A DNA stretch of 44,527 nt, from assembly GCA_035946615.1 (NCBI GenBank), contig DASYZB010000041.1, forward strand, positions 1 through 44,527, given 5' to 3'. The notes beneath the pieces were generated by a model. The model made no database searches. It was not told the origin of the DNA and saw only the letters and a list, made by a program, of their open reading frames with translations. The DNA comes from Verrucomicrobiia bacterium (lineage in GTDB: Bacteria > Verrucomicrobiota > Verrucomicrobiia > Limisphaerales > UBA8199). Both the position numbers and the translations under genes were made by a program. Positions 3,744 to 14,287 of this stretch are shown piece by piece (position 1 is the first letter of the stretch; every line of letters begins with the position of its first letter).

Positions 3744-4340
3744 TTATTGGGCGTGCTGTTCGGCCGAGGGCTTATGCTGCTCGGACGCCGGTTGTCCTTT
3801 CATGTTCTGATAATCCTGAGGCGAAAGATGAGGGAGTTTCTCAAGAAAGGCCACCATCGACCAAATTTTTTTGTCGTCATGGGTCGGGCCCCAGGCAGGC
3901 ATCGCGCTGAATTTAATGCCGTACTTGGTAATCCAAAACAACTCAGCCGGCGTCCAGGTCGGGACGGTTTTGGCCAGGTTCGGCGCTTTCGGCCAAAGGC
4001 CCTTTGCGATGTCGTCCGGCTCAACACCCGGCGCCCCATGGCACTGCGCGCACATATTGTCGTAATGCATGAAACCGCCTTGCACCATGGCGGGGTCTGA
4101 CAGAGCCGGAACCTGAACGCCGTGGGCGTGAGATTGAACTGCGCGGGTCATGCTCGTATCGAGGAAATGATTGATCCATCCGGTGTCATGGTTGTACGTG
4201 CCGATATTATAGACACCGGAGTAAATCACGGCTAATAAGGCGCCCGTTTCCAGGAGCAAAATTATAAGCACCGTTAGGATGATGACCGGCGCTCGTTTGG
4301 CGCGCACCGGTTCCGGTTGAGTCGGCTGAGTTTCCGCCAT
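3744..4340 (-). CDS. Membrane-anchored monoheme cytochrome c
   Basis: This 198-residue protein has one N-terminal membrane anchor (VIILTVLIILLLETGALLAVI) and a periplasmic class I cytochrome c domain with the heme site MCAQCHGAPG and a likely axial methionine in SAMPAWGPT. ATG at 4340 was chosen because GAGGTG sits five bases upstream; an in-frame upstream ATG at 4400 lacks such a site. The C-terminus is a hydrophilic tail rich in Gln, His and Ala. It lies upstream of the S41 and multiheme cytochrome genes on the same strand, consistent with an electron carrier, but the gaps and hairpins leave open whether they share a transcript. Confidence 0.88.
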   Translation of the reverse strand: MAETQPTQPEPVRAKRAPVIILTVLIILLLETGALLAVIYSGVYNIGTYNHDTGWINHFLDTSMTRAVQSHAHGVQVPALSDPAMVQGGFMHYDNMCAQCHGAPGVEPDDIAKGLWPKAPNLAKTVPTWTPAELFWITKYGIKFSAMPAWGPTHDDKKIWSMVAFLEKLPHLSPQDYQNMKGQPASEQHKPSAEQHAQ

Positions 4341-4682
4341 ATCACACCTCGTCGAGTGAACTTCAATATACTGCCTTCGGCTGTTTTCGGGATGGGGCAA
4401 AGACCTGCCTCAGTAATGCCTCAGTGACTACGAGGCTGCCGGCTGAAGCCGGCGTTCCGGACGCGCGGAACGCCGCCTTTAGACGGCAGCGCCCGCCGTC
4501 ACTAACCGATTACCTACCTCACAGCCTCACACCTGCTCATTCCAAAGGCGGATTTTCTCGCTCTCGATTTCACTGAGAGCACGATTTTAAAAATGGATTG
4601 CCGTCATGGGGCATTCGCCCCGTTGTAATCATCCCTTACCAATGCGAAAAAGGAGGCCAACCAAGAGTCATATGGCTTTTTA
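4341..4682. other. Intergenic region with 99-base palindromic element
   Basis: The gap between the divergent cytochrome and FN3-protein genes holds one full 99-base element (4414-4512). An AGGAGG lies at 4651, 15 bases before a four-codon frame (ATG 4672, stop overlapping the next gene's ATG as TAATG). Nothing else is recognised. Confidence 0.6.
4414..4512 (-). repeat. 99-base multi-hairpin palindromic element, copy 1
   Basis: This is the reverse complement of the copies at 27549 and 41899. The element contains three perfect stem-loops in a row (GCCGCCTAAAGGCGGC; GGCGTTCC...GGAACGCC; GCCGGCTTCAGCCGGC) enclosed by an outer AGTGAC...GTCACT pair. This copy differs at a few positions (for example TTTAGACGGC breaks one stem). 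Confidence 0.85.
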
Positions 4683-6662
4683 ATGAAATGCCCAGTCCCC
4701 AGCCCGCTTCTGACCCCTGTTCGGACTCGTACCGCCTTGTGTCTAATCGGCGTGCTGATTGCATTGCTTTCTCGGAAAGTTGATGCGGATGACACCTTCC
4801 TCTATGCAGTCCAGATTAGCGCTCTGGTCCAGGCAAACCCGCCGCAAATTACTTTAAACTGGGAACCGGACATTTTTGGCGCGAACAGCTACACGATTTT
4901 TCGCAAGGCCAAACAAGACACATCGTGGGGCTCGCCCATCGCTTCACTTCCGGGGAGCGCCACCAACTTTACCGATTCCCAGGTCGTGGTCGGCGCGACC
5001 TATGAGTACCAAATCACCAAAGCCGCAACCCTCGGCTACACCGGTTACGGCTACATTTATACCGGCATCCAGGCGCCGATGATTGACCAGCGCGGGACGC
5101 TTTTGTTGATCGTCGCGCAGGAATCCACTATCGGCCTGGACAACGAACTGGCGCGTCTGCAGAGCGATCTGGCAGGAGACGGCTGGCAGGTCCTGCGCCA
5201 AAACGTCTCGACCAACGACACACCCGATAGCGTCCATTCGCTTATCCTGAATGATTACTGGGCCAATCCTTCGAGCGTGAACACCGTCTTTCTTTTCGGG
5301 CATGTGCCTATTCTTCAATCCGGTTACCTCGATTATGATGGGCACGGCCCACGCCCGATGCCAGCCGACGCGTTCTATGGCGATATCTATCAGGACTGGC
5401 CAACCACCCTCACCAATAGCCCCAGCTATCTCCCGTCAGATGTGGCGTTAATGGTTGGCCGGGTTGATTTGTTTGATATGCCCGGCGCGGCCTCACCTGT
5501 TCCCTGGCCCAGCGAGACCGAGCTGCTCCGCACCTACCTCAATAAAGACCACGCCTGGCGCCAGGGCCAGGTGAGCGTCCCACGTCGGGCGCTGATGGGC
5601 AACCGCCGTGGCGACGAAGGGGGTTTGGCCGTGGCGGCCAGCGGCTACAGGGCCTTTGAACCCTTCGTTGGGCCTGGGAATACCATCGAAGCCAATATCA
5701 GCGACACGGCGCCGGCAAACCAGCGGTGGATGTCGATGCTCGCCAGCGGCGGCTATTTGTGGGCATACGGCTGCGGCGCAGGCCAGGACACCGCCATCAG
5801 CTACCTGGGCACGAACGGGGTTTATTATGATGTCTGGAGCGCAGACATTGTCGATCAGAATGCCCAGGCGGTTTTTATGATGGTCTTTGGCAGCCACCTG
5901 GGCAATTGGGATCACCAGGACAATTTTATGCGGTCGGTGCTCGCCACGCCGGGCATCGGACTGGCCTGTTGCATGTCAGGCGAACCCCACTGGTTCATGC
6001 ACCACATGGGCCTGGGCGAGACGATCGGATACAGCACGCGCTTGTCGATGAACAACAGCACCCTTTATCAAAACGAACAGAATCCCTACACCCGAGCGGT
6101 CTATATCGCGCTGATGGGCGATCCGACCCTGCGCATGGAACCCGTGCCGCCTCCTTCCGCACTATCTGCCAGCCAGGTCCCGGGCGGCATCGAGCTGAAC
6201 TGGGCAGCTTCTCCCACCCCAGGGGCCGGGTATTACGTTTATCGCGCTCCTTCACCCGCCGGTCCGTTCAACCGTTTGACTCCAGCGCTCCTGCCCGGGA
6301 CGAGCTTCACCGATACCGGGCTTTTGCCCAACACCTACACGTATATGGTGCGCGCCGTCAGCCTCATTGCGAATTTCAGCGGCAGTTATTACGATCCAAG
6401 TGAAGGCCTTTTCACCACCATCACCACGACCAACTCGAGTTTGCCGATTCACCTTGGAATTGGAACCAGTACGAATGGCGTGGTGCTGAGCTGGGGTTCT
6501 CAAGCGGGGGGTGTCTATCATGTTGAAGCCACGGTAGCTCTCAATCCACCGGCGTGGACCAATCTGAGCGGCACCATCGAGGCCGCGGGCTCTACCATGA
6601 CCTGGACCGATTCGACGGCTTCTGGGCGTTCTCAGCGTTTTTATCGCGTCGTTAGCCCTTGA
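4683..6662 (+). CDS. Secreted FN3 protein with C25-peptidase-like core
   Basis: The 659-residue protein carries an N-terminal signal-like segment (about 15-36), a first fibronectin type III domain (about 45-130), a central region resembling the gingipain/C25 fold and ending in the typical ALMGDPTLRMEP, a second FN3 domain (about 490-580), and a C-terminal module ending SQRFYRVVSP. By eye, YGCGAG sits where C25 enzymes have a catalytic HG motif, and FGSHLGNWD where the catalytic Cys is expected, so it may not be a protease. It is probably exported; no sorting machinery is seen nearby. The start codon overlaps the stop of a tiny upstream frame (TAATG). The domain reading is from pattern recognition only. 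Confidence 0.7.
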   Translation: MKCPVPSPLLTPVRTRTALCLIGVLIALLSRKVDADDTFLYAVQISALVQANPPQITLNWEPDIFGANSYTIFRKAKQDTSWGSPIASLPGSATNFTDSQVVVGATYEYQITKAATLGYTGYGYIYTGIQAPMIDQRGTLLLIVAQESTIGLDNELARLQSDLAGDGWQVLRQNVSTNDTPDSVHSLILNDYWANPSSVNTVFLFGHVPILQSGYLDYDGHGPRPMPADAFYGDIYQDWPTTLTNSPSYLPSDVALMVGRVDLFDMPGAASPVPWPSETELLRTYLNKDHAWRQGQVSVPRRALMGNRRGDEGGLAVAASGYRAFEPFVGPGNTIEANISDTAPANQRWMSMLASGGYLWAYGCGAGQDTAISYLGTNGVYYDVWSADIVDQNAQAVFMMVFGSHLGNWDHQDNFMRSVLATPGIGLACCMSGEPHWFMHHMGLGETIGYSTRLSMNNSTLYQNEQNPYTRAVYIALMGDPTLRMEPVPPPSALSASQVPGGIELNWAASPTPGAGYYVYRAPSPAGPFNRLTPALLPGTSFTDTGLLPNTYTYMVRAVSLIANFSGSYYDPSEGLFTTITTTNSSLPIHLGIGTSTNGVVLSWGSQAGGVYHVEATVALNPPAWTNLSGTIEAAGSTMTWTDSTASGRSQRFYRVVSP

Positions 6663-9618: not shown

Positions 9619-9805
9619 AGTGCTATTGCCGCCGTTCTCCTTCAATCGCGCGCCGTGCGCCCAACAGTAAGGAACGTTACCTTCTTAAGACAAACCGCCC
9701 CGGCATACAATTGGGGTAAAACCCTTTGGAGTCGGCGCTGACCAAATTTCAGTTCTTGACCCCATGGCGCAGAGGAGGGCGCTTCTTACTTTTAAATCCG
9801 TGAAT

Positions 9806-10393
9806 ATGACCAAAGCTTTGGCGCTCTCGATTGCTGGGCTTCTGCTGTCTCAATTGCATCTCCGTGCACAATCGCCTTACCTCTACCTCATCACCTTTCA
9901 AGGCGTGTGCTATCAAAAGAACTCCTCCGGCAATCTGGCTCCTGTTCCGCTCACTCAACAAACATTCCTGCAGGACGTCGCGCAGGCCGGCGGTGTGGAC
10001 CCAAAAACGCTGGTCCTGGTCTATCACATTCAAGGCTCCGGCTTGGGCGATACCATCGATGTGGTCAATGCCAGTACCGGCAGCACTTTGGTAAATCTGT
10101 TCGGACTCTATTTCGGGGACACCCTGGGCCGCACCGCCGCCACAAATGCCACCGCAACCGTTGTCCGTCGGGTCGATTACATTTATACCCAGCAAAACTA
10201 CACCTACACCTCCTGGAACCCGGACGCCATGGGCGCCGCATTCACCACCAAACGCTTCCAAACCGACGCCCAGGGCAACGTCCGCACAACGGTTGATGCC
10301 CAAATGCACTGGATCGTGAACCCTCAAGGGAACGCCAGCACCAAAATCTGCTCCGGCAGCTTCACCACAACCAAGCCCTTTACCCCACATTAA
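9806..10393 (+). CDS. Secreted protein of unknown function, paralog 1
   Basis: This 195-residue protein has a signal peptide (MTKALALSIAGLLLSQLHLRA, then QSPYLYLITFQG). The mature part carries no family I recognise. It is clearly paralogous to the next gene: both share QSPYL...TF.G.C(Y/F)Q, LVYHI.G...GDTID, FGL(Y/F)FGD, RRVDY(I/V)YT, MGA..TTKRF..DA.G.VRTT and TTTKPF near the end. Start 9806 gives a normal signal peptide; an upstream in-frame ATG at 9764 would add 14 residues. The two genes probably form one transcript (13-base gap) and arose by tandem duplication. Confidence 0.75.
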   Translation: MTKALALSIAGLLLSQLHLRAQSPYLYLITFQGVCYQKNSSGNLAPVPLTQQTFLQDVAQAGGVDPKTLVLVYHIQGSGLGDTIDVVNASTGSTLVNLFGLYFGDTLGRTAATNATATVVRRVDYIYTQQNYTYTSWNPDAMGAAFTTKRFQTDAQGNVRTTVDAQMHWIVNPQGNASTKICSGSFTTTKPFTPH

Positions 10394-10406
10394 AAGCCTG
10401 TCTCGA

Positions 10407-11000
10407 ATGAACTACTTCCTGCTTCTGGTCTGCTTCTCGCTAGTGGCCGCCCCCCTCGGCGCCCGCGCTCAATCCCCTTACCTGTTCCGCATGACCTTCC
10501 GGGGAGACTGCTTTCAGACCAATGGCGCGGGCCAGTTCGTCGATATCCCCATCACTCAAAACGACATCCTCCTGGCGGCGGCCCAGGCCGGCGGCACCTC
10601 GGACATCAGCTCGATGGCCCTGGTCTATCACATCATGGGCGACACCACCCACGGCGATACCATTGATATCTACAGCACCACCACCGGCCAGAAATTGACC
10701 ACCGTTTTCGGTCTCTTCTTCGGTGATGCCCCCTCGCTCAATAGGACCGCCCTGACTAATAACGCCGCCACAGAAATCCGGCGGGTCGATTATGTCTATA
10801 CCTTTAACGGCACCACCTACACCTATCCGGGAGGCCATTCCATGGGCGCTTCCTTAACCACCAAGCGGTTCAGTTCCGATGCCCGGGGACTCGTGCGCAC
10901 AACCATTGAAGGCCAGATGGAGTGGGTCGTCAATCCCATCAACGGCGCCGGCCCCAAGGTCCTCCGCGCCACCTTTACCACAACCAAACCGTTCCCGTAA
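10407..11000 (+). CDS. Secreted protein of unknown function, paralog 2
   Basis: This 197-residue protein has a signal peptide (MNYFLLLVCFSLVAAPLGARA, mature end at QSPYLFRMTFRG). Much of its length is similar to the upstream paralog, including a short conserved C-terminal TTTKPFP. One Cys in the mature protein (RGDCFQ) is conserved between the two. No catalytic motif is evident. Many G, T and N residues and alternating hydrophobics suggest a beta-rich fold, which is inference. Its 3' end abuts the left inverted repeat of the methyltransferase module. Confidence 0.75.
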   Translation: MNYFLLLVCFSLVAAPLGARAQSPYLFRMTFRGDCFQTNGAGQFVDIPITQNDILLAAAQAGGTSDISSMALVYHIMGDTTHGDTIDIYSTTTGQKLTTVFGLFFGDAPSLNRTALTNNAATEIRRVDYVYTFNGTTYTYPGGHSMGASLTTKRFSSDARGLVRTTIEGQMEWVVNPINGAGPKVLRATFTTTKPFP

Positions 11001-11017
11001 ATCGCCCCGCGCCCGCC

Positions 11018-11064
11018 AGCGTCTTGGACTGCGCCAGTCCTCTAGTCCTCTGCCGCTTTTGGAC
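11018..11064 (+). repeat. Left inverted repeat flanking methyltransferase module
   Basis: AGCGTCTTGGACTGCGCC opens this copy and GCTTTTGGAC closes it. The reverse complement of 13071-13109 matches it nearly base for base except for a gap of about ten bases. Similar sequences may be dispersed in related genomes, so this may be a repeat family member rather than a dedicated element end. Confidence 0.7.
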
Positions 11065-11078
11065 AGACAGCAAAGTCA

Positions 11079-11112
11079 AATTAATAAAAATAGGCAATTA
11101 ATAAAAATAGGC
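11079..11112. repeat. Two tandem perfect 17-base direct repeats
   Basis: AATTAATAAAAATAGGC occurs twice without a gap (11079-11095 and 11096-11112). It is strikingly AT-rich compared with its surroundings and sits 33 bases before the operator-like palindrome of the methyltransferase gene. It could be an UP-like promoter element, a protein-binding site or an insertion scar. Confidence 0.85.
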
Positions 11113-11144
11113 GTTCAGGAAAGAACAAGGTGATCTCAATGTCT

Positions 11145-11175
11145 TGTAACAGGGAAGATATACCCTGTTACAGGG
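11145..11175. promoter_or_regulatory. Operator-like palindrome upstream of methyltransferase
   Basis: TGTAACAGGG and CCCTGTTACA are perfect inverted arms of ten bases around an 8-base AT-rich spacer. The right arm continues as CCCTGTTACAGGG, itself a 6-1-6 palindrome, giving three half-sites. The site directly abuts the -35 box of the presumed promoter, so a bound protein would block or recruit polymerase. A repressor role, possibly by the methyltransferase N-terminal domain itself, is inferred. Confidence 0.65.
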
Positions 11176-11204
11176 TTGACAAAAAGGGCTTCATTCGTCA
11201 TACC
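11176..11204 (+). promoter_or_regulatory. Candidate promoter giving a leaderless transcript
   Basis: A perfect TTGACA (11176-11181) is followed after 17 bases by CATACC, a weak -10 box. Transcription would start about seven bases later, at or next to the ATG at 11211, which has no ribosome binding site. Leaderless translation fits. Confidence 0.5.
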
Positions 11205-11210
11205 TTCCCC

Positions 11211-12242
11211 ATGGCGCGCTCATCGACCACCTATCCCCCAAAGTGGCGCTCAGGAAAGACGACTGTCATCCGAGTGCCCGAACGCATCGCGGAGGACCTG
11301 CTCGACATCGCTCGACGGTTGGACGTTGCCCCAAAGTACTGCCTCCGCGAGGACGCCAACAGCTTTGTGCTCGAGCTCGTCCCGGCCAGGCGCGTGCGAT
11401 ACACAGCCGACAAACCTGCCAACGTGGCCAGTGTGCCCCAGAGGAGTCCGTTTCGCTACCCCGGCGGCAAGACCTGGCTCGTTCCATATATCCGTGACTG
11501 GCTCAAGAGCAAGAATTCCCCACCAGCCCGCCTGATAGAACCCTTCGCGGGCGGGGCGATAGTCAGCTTAACGGCCGCTTTTGAACGGCTGGCGAGGCAC
11601 GTCATCTTTGCTGAAATGGATGAAGGGGTTGCGGCGGTATGGCGCATTGTACTTAACGGTCAGGCGGAGTGGTTGGCGAAGCAGATACTGGATTTTGAAG
11701 TCACTTTGGAAACCGTCACCAAAGCGCTCCACGACGACCCCGCCGGCCTGCGCGAGAAGGCGTTCCAGACTGTTCTCCGGAACCGTGTCCAGCGTGGGGG
11801 CATCCTGGCGGCCGGAGCCGGACTAGTGAAGACTGGCGAGAATGGCAGAGGGCTGTTGTCGCGATGGTACCCTCAGACCCTGGCACGCCGCATCCGGGAG
11901 ATCAACCGTCAGAAAGACAGGCTCACTTTTGTCGAAGGTGACGCCTTCGCTTTGATCGATGAACACAAGGCCGATGCCGAGGCAGTTTTTTATATTGACC
12001 CTCCCTATACTGTGGCGGCGCGCCGCTTGTACACTGTGTGGCAGGTGGACCACGCCCGCCTCTTTGAGGCGATGACCGCTTGCAAGGGCGATTTCTTGAT
12101 GAGCTACGACAATACTGCCGAGATCGCGCATTTGGCCGAAAAGCACGGATTGGAAAGCCGGCCAATCGCCATGAAGAACACTCACCACGCCAAAATGACC
12201 GAGCTGCTAATCGGCAGAGACCTCTCCTGGCTTGGTGAATGA
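11211..12242 (+). CDS. D12-class N6-adenine DNA methyltransferase with N-terminal DNA-binding-like extension
   Basis: The Dam-type catalytic part runs from about residue 80: SPFRYPGGKTWLVPYI (AdoMet motif X), LIEPFAGGAIVSL (motif I), FYIDPPYT (DPPY catalytic motif) and the C-terminal KMTELLIGRDL typical of this class. It should transfer methyl groups to adenine in a short site. About 70 residues precede this core, including TTVIRVPERIAEDLLDIARRL, which resembles a ribbon-helix-helix strand-helix unit. With the palindrome at its promoter, this suggests autoregulation (inference). The ATG at 11211 was chosen since a TTGACA promoter overlaps the upstream part of the longer frame (from 11130). 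It converges on the four-cysteine gene with a 16-base gap. Confidence 0.85.
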   Translation: MARSSTTYPPKWRSGKTTVIRVPERIAEDLLDIARRLDVAPKYCLREDANSFVLELVPARRVRYTADKPANVASVPQRSPFRYPGGKTWLVPYIRDWLKSKNSPPARLIEPFAGGAIVSLTAAFERLARHVIFAEMDEGVAAVWRIVLNGQAEWLAKQILDFEVTLETVTKALHDDPAGLREKAFQTVLRNRVQRGGILAAGAGLVKTGENGRGLLSRWYPQTLARRIREINRQKDRLTFVEGDAFALIDEHKADAEAVFYIDPPYTVAARRLYTVWQVDHARLFEAMTACKGDFLMSYDNTAEIAHLAEKHGLESRPIAMKNTHHAKMTELLIGRDLSWLGE

Positions 12243-12258
12243 GGAAACTTGAGAATGG

Positions 12259-12942
12259 TCAATCGCTCCCGGAGCCCAGCGGGTGACCCGGGGCGAGCGA
12301 GCCAAGCTTGAAACGTAGCTGCTCCTCGAATTCCTCCTTCGAGAGCGGCACACCTCCGGTAAGCGACTTGACCGAGGCATCGAGCCTGGTGAAAGCTAAA
12401 TCCCGGGGGGCCAATTTCCACCCGGTCAATGTGGATTCATACCCCACAACGAACCAAGCGATCTCCGCGTTAGACAGGTGTTTCTCCCGCTCTAACCCAA
12501 CCAGCGACGAGAAAAAGGTGCCGATGAAATCACGGGTCTCCGGGTCGTCCTCTTCCTGCCGCTGTTCCGGACGAAGCCGGTCAAGGAACCCAATTTGGCT
12601 CAGCACAACGGGCTCAGTTGTTTGGAGTAACTTTTCGGCAACCCAGCGAAATATCGTTTCAGATTCCAAAAAACGCAGCGGGCAGGTGGTTATCACAGGT
12701 CCAACCCCGGTTACCGGCCCATCACCGATCTGCTGATACAGCCGAAGTGAGCAGACACCGCCCTTCTTGCTGCATTCTGCATCTACCTGGAAGGGGCAAG
12801 GTGTGCCCGTGAGCGCATCCAGTTCGTATTCTGCGTCGGCGCGGCTAAACCGCTCCCGCGGAGAGAGCGTCTCGAATCCAGCTCCGTACCATTCTCCTAT
12901 CGAATATCTGGCGGGGATTCGTGGTTTCTTAGGCTTTGCCAC
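12259..12942 (-). CDS. Four-cysteine protein resembling NotI-family endonuclease N-terminus
   Basis: This 227-residue protein has cysteines at 49, 57, 64 and 87 in the pattern TPCPF...ECSKKGGVCS...TTCPLRFLE. From memory, this matches the iron-binding Cys4 region of NotI-type restriction endonucleases (CPF, GVC, CP.R), and EPVVLSQIGFL could be the strand that follows. The expected downstream catalytic D and E-x-Q/E-x-K residues are not recognisable; AWFVVGYESTLTG is the only faint candidate. NotI is much longer (about 380 residues). It lies 16 bases from, and convergent with, an adenine methyltransferase, as expected for a restriction-modification pair. It may be a divergent nuclease, a shortened relative or a non-nuclease partner. 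Confidence 0.5.
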   Translation of the reverse strand: MAKPKKPRIPARYSIGEWYGAGFETLSPRERFSRADAEYELDALTGTPCPFQVDAECSKKGGVCSLRLYQQIGDGPVTGVGPVITTCPLRFLESETIFRWVAEKLLQTTEPVVLSQIGFLDRLRPEQRQEEDDPETRDFIGTFFSSLVGLEREKHLSNAEIAWFVVGYESTLTGWKLAPRDLAFTRLDASVKSLTGGVPLSKEEFEEQLRFKLGSLAPGHPLGSGSD

Positions 12943-13070
12943 GGGCTGTGTTTAACAGAGGGGAACTGGCTGGCCAACCCAAAACCTGCTCTGAGCTGTT
13001 CCACCTTAACCTCGAAACACGCTGCTCCTACACCCGCCATCAACGGCAGTTGAACCTCAAACACGAGGTT

Positions 13071-13109
13071 AGTCCAAAAGCACCAGAGACTGGCGCAGTC
13101 CACGACGCT
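13071..13109 (-). repeat. Right inverted repeat flanking methyltransferase module
   Basis: The reverse complement starts AGCGTCGTGGACTGCGCC and ends GCTTTTGGACT, matching 11018-11064. The pair encloses about 2.0 kb with the methyltransferase, its regulatory DNA and the NotI-like gene. Confidence 0.7.
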
Positions 13110-13211
13110 TCGCGCGGGCCGATGCCAGGCTGGTATGAACTGGCGCCGATGGCGTCACGCCACCTTACACCCGCCACTCGCGCCCAGCCAAAATACAGTC
13201 TGGTTAATGTC

Positions 13212-13239
13212 TTGACCCGCTCCCTCCATTCATTTTAAT
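13212..13239 (+). promoter_or_regulatory. Candidate mreB promoter
   Basis: TTGACC (13212-13217) is followed 16 bases later by TTTAAT (13234-13239), with mreB starting at 13262. This would drive the mre operon. Match quality is moderate. Confidence 0.45.
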
Positions 13240-13261
13240 TTCCCCCTGTTAGGCAGTATTC

Positions 13262-14287
13262 ATGTTCGCGCAACTCAAAAGCCTGTTTTCCAATGACATT
13301 GGAATAGACTTGGGGACTGCCAATTCCCTGGTTTATGTACGCGACCGGGGCATTGTCCTGCGGGAACCCTCTGTCGTGGCAATCCAGGCCGGCACCACCA
13401 ACGTCCTGGCGGTTGGCGAAGAAGCCAAACGGATGCTCGGGCGGACCCCTGGCAACATCGTGGCCATTCGGCCAATGAAAGACGGTGTCATCGCTGATTT
13501 CGAAATAACCGAAGCGATGCTGCGTCATTTCATCCAGAAGGTCCACCATCGCAAGCTCATTGCCCCGCGCGTAGTGGTTGCGGTACCTTCGGGCATCACA
13601 GAAGTCGAAAAACGGGCGGTCAAAGATTCCGCGACTCATGCCGGCGCGCGGGAAGTATATCTGATCGAACAACCGATGGCCTCGGCCATCGGGGTCGGAT
13701 TGCCGGTACATGAGCCGGCGGGCAATATGATTGTCGATATCGGCGGTGGGACTTGCGAAATCGCAATCATCTCCCTGGCCGGCATCGTCTTCAGCCGCAG
13801 CCTGAGGGTCGGCGGCGACGAGTTCGACGAAACAATCGTTGCGCACATGAAACGGGCCTATAACCTGATGATCGGTGAACGCACCGCGGAAGAGATTAAA
13901 ATACGGATTGGCTCTGCTTTTCCGCTGGAGCAGGAATTAACTATGGAAGTCAAGGGACGCGATTTGAGCGCCGGTTTGCCGAAAACCTTAACTATTCGGT
14001 CGGAAGAGATTCGCGAAGCCTTGCAAGAGCCGCTCTCGAGCATTTTGGAGTCTGTTCGCATCACCCTGGAACGTTGCCCTCCTGAATTATCCGCCGATCT
14101 GGTCGATCGGGGGATCGTCATGGCCGGCGGCGGGGCGTTGTTGCGCGGGATTGATCGGTTGGTGGCTGAAGAGACCGGCTTGCCGGTCCACATCGCCGAC
14201 GACCCCCTCAGCGCCGTTGCCGAAGGCACCGGCCGGGTCCTGCAGGAACTCCAATTCCTCAAGCGCGTCTCAAATAATTCCAAGTAG
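13262..14287 (+). CDS. mreB: Rod-shape-determining actin homolog MreB
   Basis: The 341-residue protein covers the usual MreB length. Visible actin-fold elements are the phosphate-1 motif [13 protein letters not shown] (N-terminus), the phosphate-2 motif [14 protein letters not shown] (about 155-170) and an adenosine-binding [12 protein letters not shown] (about 285). MreB forms membrane-bound filaments that position the elongation machinery. It is the first gene of mreB-mreC-mreD-PBP2-rodA, with about 108 bases before mreC that contain a small hairpin (GTGGCAG...CTGCCAC), possibly modulating expression of the downstream genes. Confidence 0.97.

Follow-up and report, generated by a model that had tools for sequence, protein, structure and literature searches.

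A NotI-family endonuclease gene without its nuclease core, convergent with a D12 adenine methyltransferase gene that is probably self-regulated

A Verrucomicrobiia bacterium (GenBank assembly GCA_035946615.1, contig DASYZB010000041.1, positions 1-44,527) carries two convergent genes that we take, with good confidence and on the basis of their sequences, to be a type II restriction-modification (R-M) module whose endonuclease (R) has lost its core and whose methyltransferase (M) is probably active and self-regulated, with an mRNA that is probably leaderless. The ancestral module would have been of a widespread type, a NotI-family endonuclease gene convergent with a D12 adenine methyltransferase gene. 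One in-frame deletion of 267 bases would have cut out the nuclease core of R, fusing the Cys4 part to the C-terminal part, and restriction would thereby have been lost. M would go on methylating as a solitary enzyme at the old recognition site, and the pattern of conservation suggests that its N-terminal extension would bind a palindrome before its own promoter and repress it, in a feedback loop that sets methylation. The locus would then illustrate clearly an R-M system in the course of losing restriction while modification stays.

Layout of the locus

The window (all 44,527 nt of the stretch that was analysed) belongs to a genome of 5.6 Mb in 161 contigs. An earlier reading of the letters alone, here called the sequence-only reading, had described the two genes as convergent and 16 bases apart, and both open reading frames, their stop codons and the 16 bases between the stops were confirmed. 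The features are listed below; L017 is the intact relative closest to R.

11018-11064, no strand: left repeat copy, member of a dispersed family, outside the mechanism
11145-11154, no strand: second partial site TGTAACAGGG, with the TGTWAC cores 21 bases apart
11163-11175, no strand: palindrome CCCTGTTACAGGG, the putative M operator, with exact copies in six close loci
11176-11181, plus strand: TTGACA, resembling a -35 element, 35 bases ahead of the M start and followed by a 17-base spacer
11199-11204, plus strand: CATACC, -10-like hexamer, 6 bases before the ATG
11211-12242, plus strand: M, 343 aa from the probable ATG at 11211; the longest frame, 11130-12242, has 370 aa and begins with GTG at 11130
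11211-11420, plus strand: N-terminal extension of M, about 70 residues, close subclade only, proposed DNA-binding autoregulatory domain
12259-12942, minus strand: R, 227 aa, GTG start; Cys4 and C-terminal parts kept, catalytic core missing
12519-12520, minus strand: junction of the deletion, with residue G141 of R on one side and T142 on the other; residues 142-230 of L017 absent
13072-13109, no strand: right repeat copy, inverted, member of the same dispersed family, outside the mechanism

No Rfam family was found within 10900-13300. Left of the module, 9764-11000 holds two adjoining secreted paralogs with no Pfam match and only weak NCBIfam matches, far under the cut-offs. An exact tandem copy of AATTAATAAAAATAGGC (two units, 11079-11112) sits between the left repeat and the control region of M.

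The endonuclease gene and its missing core

R matches the NotI family (PF12183) with E 4e-16 and 59.5 bits (cut-off 22), and its cysteines C49, C57, C64 and C87 are invariant in a 32-row alignment. The earlier description of a four-cysteine NotI-like protein holds by family and by fold. Searches of solved structures by sequence returned nothing for R or its relatives, and NotI was reached by fold comparison only. L017 is the closest by E-value among the best 80 of 104 relatives (69% across the full alignment); its R, of 316 aa, matches PF12183 with E 3.4e-56. The model of L017 R (pLDDT 91.4) has NotI as its best fold (3c25, Foldseek E 5.3e-7); the VIA comparison with NotI gave Z 16.6 over 258 aligned residues, the next unrelated fold having Z 8.2. 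After NotI, the L017 model (R at 4001-4948) resembles XisH family proteins (2okf, Z 8.2; 2inb, Z 8.1).

The R of the window is exactly 89 codons shorter than that of L017, with no other indel between the two. The deletion is single and in-frame (267 bases), and the start, the stop and both flanks are intact. Residues 142-230 of L017 hold D144, E161, Q163, K204 and R205, nearly invariant in the 32-row alignment, and the gap takes out three strands and two helices of the L017 model (142-148, 157-162, 169-181, 198-219 and 224-229). From the D-ExQ pattern these five would be catalytic residues; a passage in a review states that NotI has Q where lysine is usual (PMC4081073). Among the best 80 of the 104 relatives, an [E/K]xQ-A/G/T-V-Y/D motif was present in 77 loci and a looser ExQ in 2, with none in the remaining one (L018, a stub).

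No remnant of the core was found at the junction in any of the six reading frames, nor did the core turn up in another frame elsewhere in the window, and full-length relatives matched only the two flanks by tblastn. The D and ExQ of the NotI-family nuclease core are absent from the window R. A functional family member would cut GCGGCCGC or another long site. With no counterpart of residues 142-230 of L017, R is a derived relative by descent and, judging by this loss, very probably does not work as an endonuclease. An active new R-M system is unlikely, since R has no catalytic core. PF12183 matches once in the genome, and no second NotI-type R was thus found there.

Age of the deletion

With L019 as outgroup, codon positions 1-2 and position 3 carried 34 and 47 changes found only in the window R, against 35 and 37 found only in L017; with L020 the counts were 32 and 38 against 33 and 46 (Fisher p for the contrast 0.42 with L019 and 0.74 with L020). 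Amino-acid changes were 16 in the window versus 17 in L017 (outgroup L019), and 16 versus 8 (outgroup L020). Identities to the outgroups, window versus L017, were 61.0 versus 60.5% for L019, 40.0 versus 40.5% for L054 and 46.7 versus 50.5% for L020. In these counts the rest of R resembles a constrained gene, which fits a recent deletion and equally a retained function. If R was broken only recently, the locus represents ordinary decay.

In NotI, the Cys4 and C-terminal parts lie on the DNA. A core-less R might have been kept as a sequence-specific binding protein, either a regulator or a shield of sites. Such retention would agree with a single, clean, in-frame deletion that leaves start, stop and both flanks intact, with the 16 versus 17 amino-acid changes counted against L019 and with identities to L019 and L054 close to those of intact L017, but not with the lower identity to L020 or the 16 versus 8 changes counted against it. 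The removed strands, moreover, lie in the central sheet, and what is left of R might be unable to fold; neither the best 80 of the 104 loci nor the search of the order gave another genome with this core-less form, and a recent deletion accounts for the same facts. We judge retention of R as a binding protein improbable. It is likewise doubtful that the disarmed R was kept as a Cys4 site-specific DNA binder together with a self-regulated M, the R-M module having turned into a regulator or epigenetic pair.

Decay in the order

R matches were found in 13 of 320 genomes of the order, our own included. R was uninterrupted over most of its length in four of the other twelve (G393, G491, G654 and G655, the last taken as the same contig as L054), and two ambiguous cases (G440, G516) had a long open frame with the C-terminal part unaligned. 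The remaining six were damaged, by a frame change near residue 95 (G642), absence of the N-terminal third (G517), reduction to a 134-residue stub (G464, taken as the same contig as L018), a stop, with the N-terminus alone present (G593), reduction to a 22-residue trace (G601) or two stops (G395). The relatives in the order show other stages: intact, frameshifted, a stub beside another nuclease gene, and a fragment. M was damaged or not seen in some genomes (G517, G395, G593, G601), so the module decays and R is often hit, with no proof that M always survives.

These genomes also bear on the reliability of the deletion. It could be an artefact of assembly or a variant of a minority of cells, with an intact and active R-M system in the organism, and a genome in 161 contigs lends this some weight. 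An exact in-frame loss of 267 bases with clean flanks would be unusual for an assembly error, however, and damage to R in 6 of the 12 other genomes of the order argues in the same direction; we regard an artefact or a minority variant as unlikely and a genuine loss of the core as the better reading.

In L018 (4001-6651), a HaeII-family endonuclease gene (PF09554, E 1.3e-5, 25.1 bits, barely reaching the cut-off) and an open reading frame of 102 aa separate the R stub from M, whose last residues are unlike those of all aligned relatives. This looks like a swap of the endonuclease by recombination.

Pairing and distribution

The scan for relatives covered one genome per species and used an alignment of R N-termini only as query, so that core-less forms could be found. 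It yielded 104 relatives, and the 80 best were retained. Among these best 80 of 104, 67 adjoin a D12 methyltransferase gene and 12 a cytosine-5 one, and in one the contig ends inside R. The pairs with D12 are convergent as in the window in 42 cases, with M upstream on the same strand in 19 and downstream on the same strand in 6. In these 67 pairs R and M are within 400 bases of each other, except in L018, where 1,242 bases and another gene separate them. M is in two pieces in L035, L057 and L072, and in L062 (1512-4259) the D12 methyltransferase lies within a 915-residue open frame.

The recurrent adjacency of R and M is that of a type II R-M system; the two genes belong together, as the sequence-only reading had supposed, and the pair recurs as neighbours in other genomes. 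That reading had also held the pairing to be unfamiliar and possibly new; with 67 of the best 80 of 104 relatives beside a D12 gene, and plasmid copies already annotated automatically, it is common.

Eight plasmid records carry R, seven of them beside a D12 gene by position and one, pBN5, beside a cytosine-5 gene. On pBN5 (L013, 3548-6359) a very short patch repair endonuclease accompanies the minority pairing of a NotI-family endonuclease with a cytosine-5 methyltransferase. R relatives were absent from 50,697 phage records and from two scans of viral contigs. In a search of 387 genomes of the phylum, the R of the window matched no genome other than its own; PF12183 matched nine, our own included, the other eight comprising five with R beside a D12 gene and three with R beside a cytosine-5 gene.

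The methyltransferase

M matches the D12 family (PF02086, E 1e-12), as the sequence-only reading had claimed. No match for M was obtained when solved structures were searched by sequence; the modelled M matches E. coli Dam (for example 4rtn, Foldseek E 2.3e-11), with Dam structures among the best Foldseek matches. The catalytic part starts at about residue 69, its FAGGA and DPPY align with invariant columns (FxGxx and DPPY), and it shares 44-79% identity with the M genes that adjoin R relatives. By sequence and modelled fold, M is an intact Dam-fold D12 adenine methyltransferase, and it is probably active, a solitary enzyme that would still methylate the old recognition site.

The start of M is placed at the ATG at 11211, and the first 27 codons of the longest frame are probably untranslated, because a MARSS start is common to the relatives and the preceding stretch holds the conserved palindrome and TTGACA.

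Control of the methyltransferase

The N-terminal extension was found by tblastn in 10 of the 85 loci with an M. Six extension sequences gave no significant Pfam family; the best match was RHH_1 (E 0.034, in one sequence, under the cut-off), and Amphi-Trp appeared at E 0.04-0.075 in two of the six. The model of the extension, a helix plus a hairpin, is of low confidence. A ribbon-helix-helix fold, the first idea for the N-terminus, is one candidate, with RHH_1 under the cut-off in one of six sequences and the model of low confidence.

An exact CCCTGTWACAGGG palindrome lies within 50 bases of the M start codon in six close loci, in which the M genes behind it share 63-76% protein identity. Mismatches to the palindrome numbered 0, 0, 0, 0, 0, 0, 1, 2, 3 and 5 in the ten loci with the extension (the 5 being L116, without an M start) and 3 to 6 in the 75 loci without it (the rows for L028 and L068 being invalid, with the wrong stretch at contig ends). 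The consensus was derived from the close loci themselves, which builds part of the match into the counts there, so more weight falls on the exact copies. In the 5.6-Mb genome the exact 13-mer has a single copy, at M. With one mismatch allowed there are three further places, and the reversed control pattern is commoner than the palindrome (11 per strand versus 4), so the palindrome is not enriched genome-wide.

The arrangement around the palindrome is shared as well. In the window, L017, L018, G642, L019 and L020, TTGACA lies 35 or 36 bases ahead of the M start and is followed by a 17-base spacer and a hexamer that ends 6 or 7 bases ahead of the start. TTGACA directly abuts the end of the palindrome in the first four of these, and in L019 and L020 the palindrome overlies the -10-like hexamer, with another partial site at TTGACA. 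The 21-base spacing of the TGTWAC cores is common to the window, L017 and L018. The other three loci tested (L115, L118, L054) have no TTGACA at the M promoter position. A consensus promoter scan left the proposed M promoter unscored, the -10-like hexamer being poor, and the sole site that it found is on the other strand. Near the R start, the loci inspected showed no 13-mer with two or fewer mismatches; only L018 has a 9-mer, TGTAACAGG, placed 45 bases ahead of its R stub.

The spacing implies that the mRNA of M is probably leaderless. Leaderless transcripts are reportedly mentioned in one paper for C-protein R-M systems. From conservation, we infer that the extension probably binds the palindrome at its own promoter and represses M by feedback; the link between extension and palindrome rests on one lineage, since the two occur together in one clade only, and a separate repressor may act at the palindrome in place of the M N-terminus. 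The observations point to a candidate autoregulatory switch for one methyltransferase subclade, and the search suggests that the extension with an exact palindrome near the M start is unreported in the literature reached. If correct, this would be an R-M control design that we did not find described in the literature searched: a D12 methyltransferase fused to an N-terminal regulator, its leaderless promoter governed by a CCCTGTWACAGGG operator.

Comparison with known systems

The window R resembles the NotI family (PF12183; 3c25, 3bvq) in its family match above the cut-off, its four cysteines and the best fold of intact L017. It differs in lacking 89 core residues, and its relatives mostly pair with a D12 methyltransferase, a cytosine-5 one being the minority (12 of 80, among the best 80 of 104). 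The same two families stand side by side on pEST4011 (NC_005793), in Aeromonas veronii (NZ_CP121823) and on Thermus brockianus pTbrSNM4-1c, plasmid pairs automatically annotated as 'NotI family restriction endonuclease' next to 'DNA adenine methylase'. Those pairs are on the same strand, with a full-length R and an M without the extension, whereas in the window the genes are convergent, R is core-less and M is extended. A search for NotI-family or NotI-like endonucleases paired with a methylase or methyltransferase returned nothing from the literature, and none of the papers listed on NotI, Cys4 and iron appeared to concern such a system.

For control, the nearest likeness is M.SsoII, which also has a region of about 70 residues before the methyltransferase domain. 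Residues 1-71 of M.SsoII regulate transcription, and the enzyme is a cytosine-5 methyltransferase with an N-terminal region modelled on the phage 434 repressor (PMC3978073). The window M is, in contrast, a D12 adenine methyltransferase whose extension has no significant family match and whose regulatory role is putative. By analogy, M probably controls itself as M.SsoII does, though it is of another methyltransferase class.

The best PADLOC match of M is PD-Lambda-5_B (E 9.6e-47), the match being to its methyltransferase part. PD-Lambda-5 is described as a compacted prophage RM+Abi-like system (PMC9519451), unlike the two-gene NotI-type pair of the window, whose R relatives have no PADLOC match. 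Three R proteins tried against PADLOC-DB 2.0.0 gave none, which points to a widespread NotI-D12 R-M type with an endonuclease unmatched in that database. Methyltransferases left without restriction are well known (PMC12707154). The finding is mostly ordinary; its new parts are the clean deletion and the unreported control element.

Flanking repeats

Near-matching inverted repeats do exist on both sides of the two genes, where the sequence-only reading had seen them. Their arms are 11018-11039 with 13088-13109 (22 nt, 95% complementary) and 11048-11064 with 13072-13088 (17 nt, 88% complementary), and shuffled windows would be expected to yield 0 matches to a pattern built on the right copy. As module borders they did not stand up, being a genome-wide family: the right copy alone has at least 43 places in the genome, and E is 2.3e-7 or lower for at least 42 of them, the copy's own among these (40 of 76 first-look candidates scored). 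A 19-base core with up to three mismatches has 16 places, the reversed control 1. These repeats play no part in the mechanism.

That reading proposed a novel R-M or R-M-derived system, possibly acquired as a unit; the case for an active system of this kind, gained in one piece together with the repeats around it, draws on two convergent genes of the right kinds enclosed by inverted repeats. The pairing is common, however, the core of R is gone and the repeats are genome-wide, and the GC contents of M and R (58.3 and 57.6%) are like that of the window (58.9%); we judge such a new, active system acquired as a unit highly improbable, and we retain the reading of a module that lost the core of R.

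mreB is present in 10 of the 12 other genomes of the family, and none of the 10 shares the left flank. The stretches upstream of mreB (708-8,815 bases, two of them ending early at contig ends, at 708 and 2,133 bases) are without R, M, the secreted paralogs and the two genes further left, so that an empty site cannot be defined.

Seven matches to Y1-transposase occur in the genome and would fit a REP-like repeat family. Elsewhere in the genome some copies of this palindromic repeat are near neighbours, as at C150:40287 and C150:40413, which have opposite orientations.
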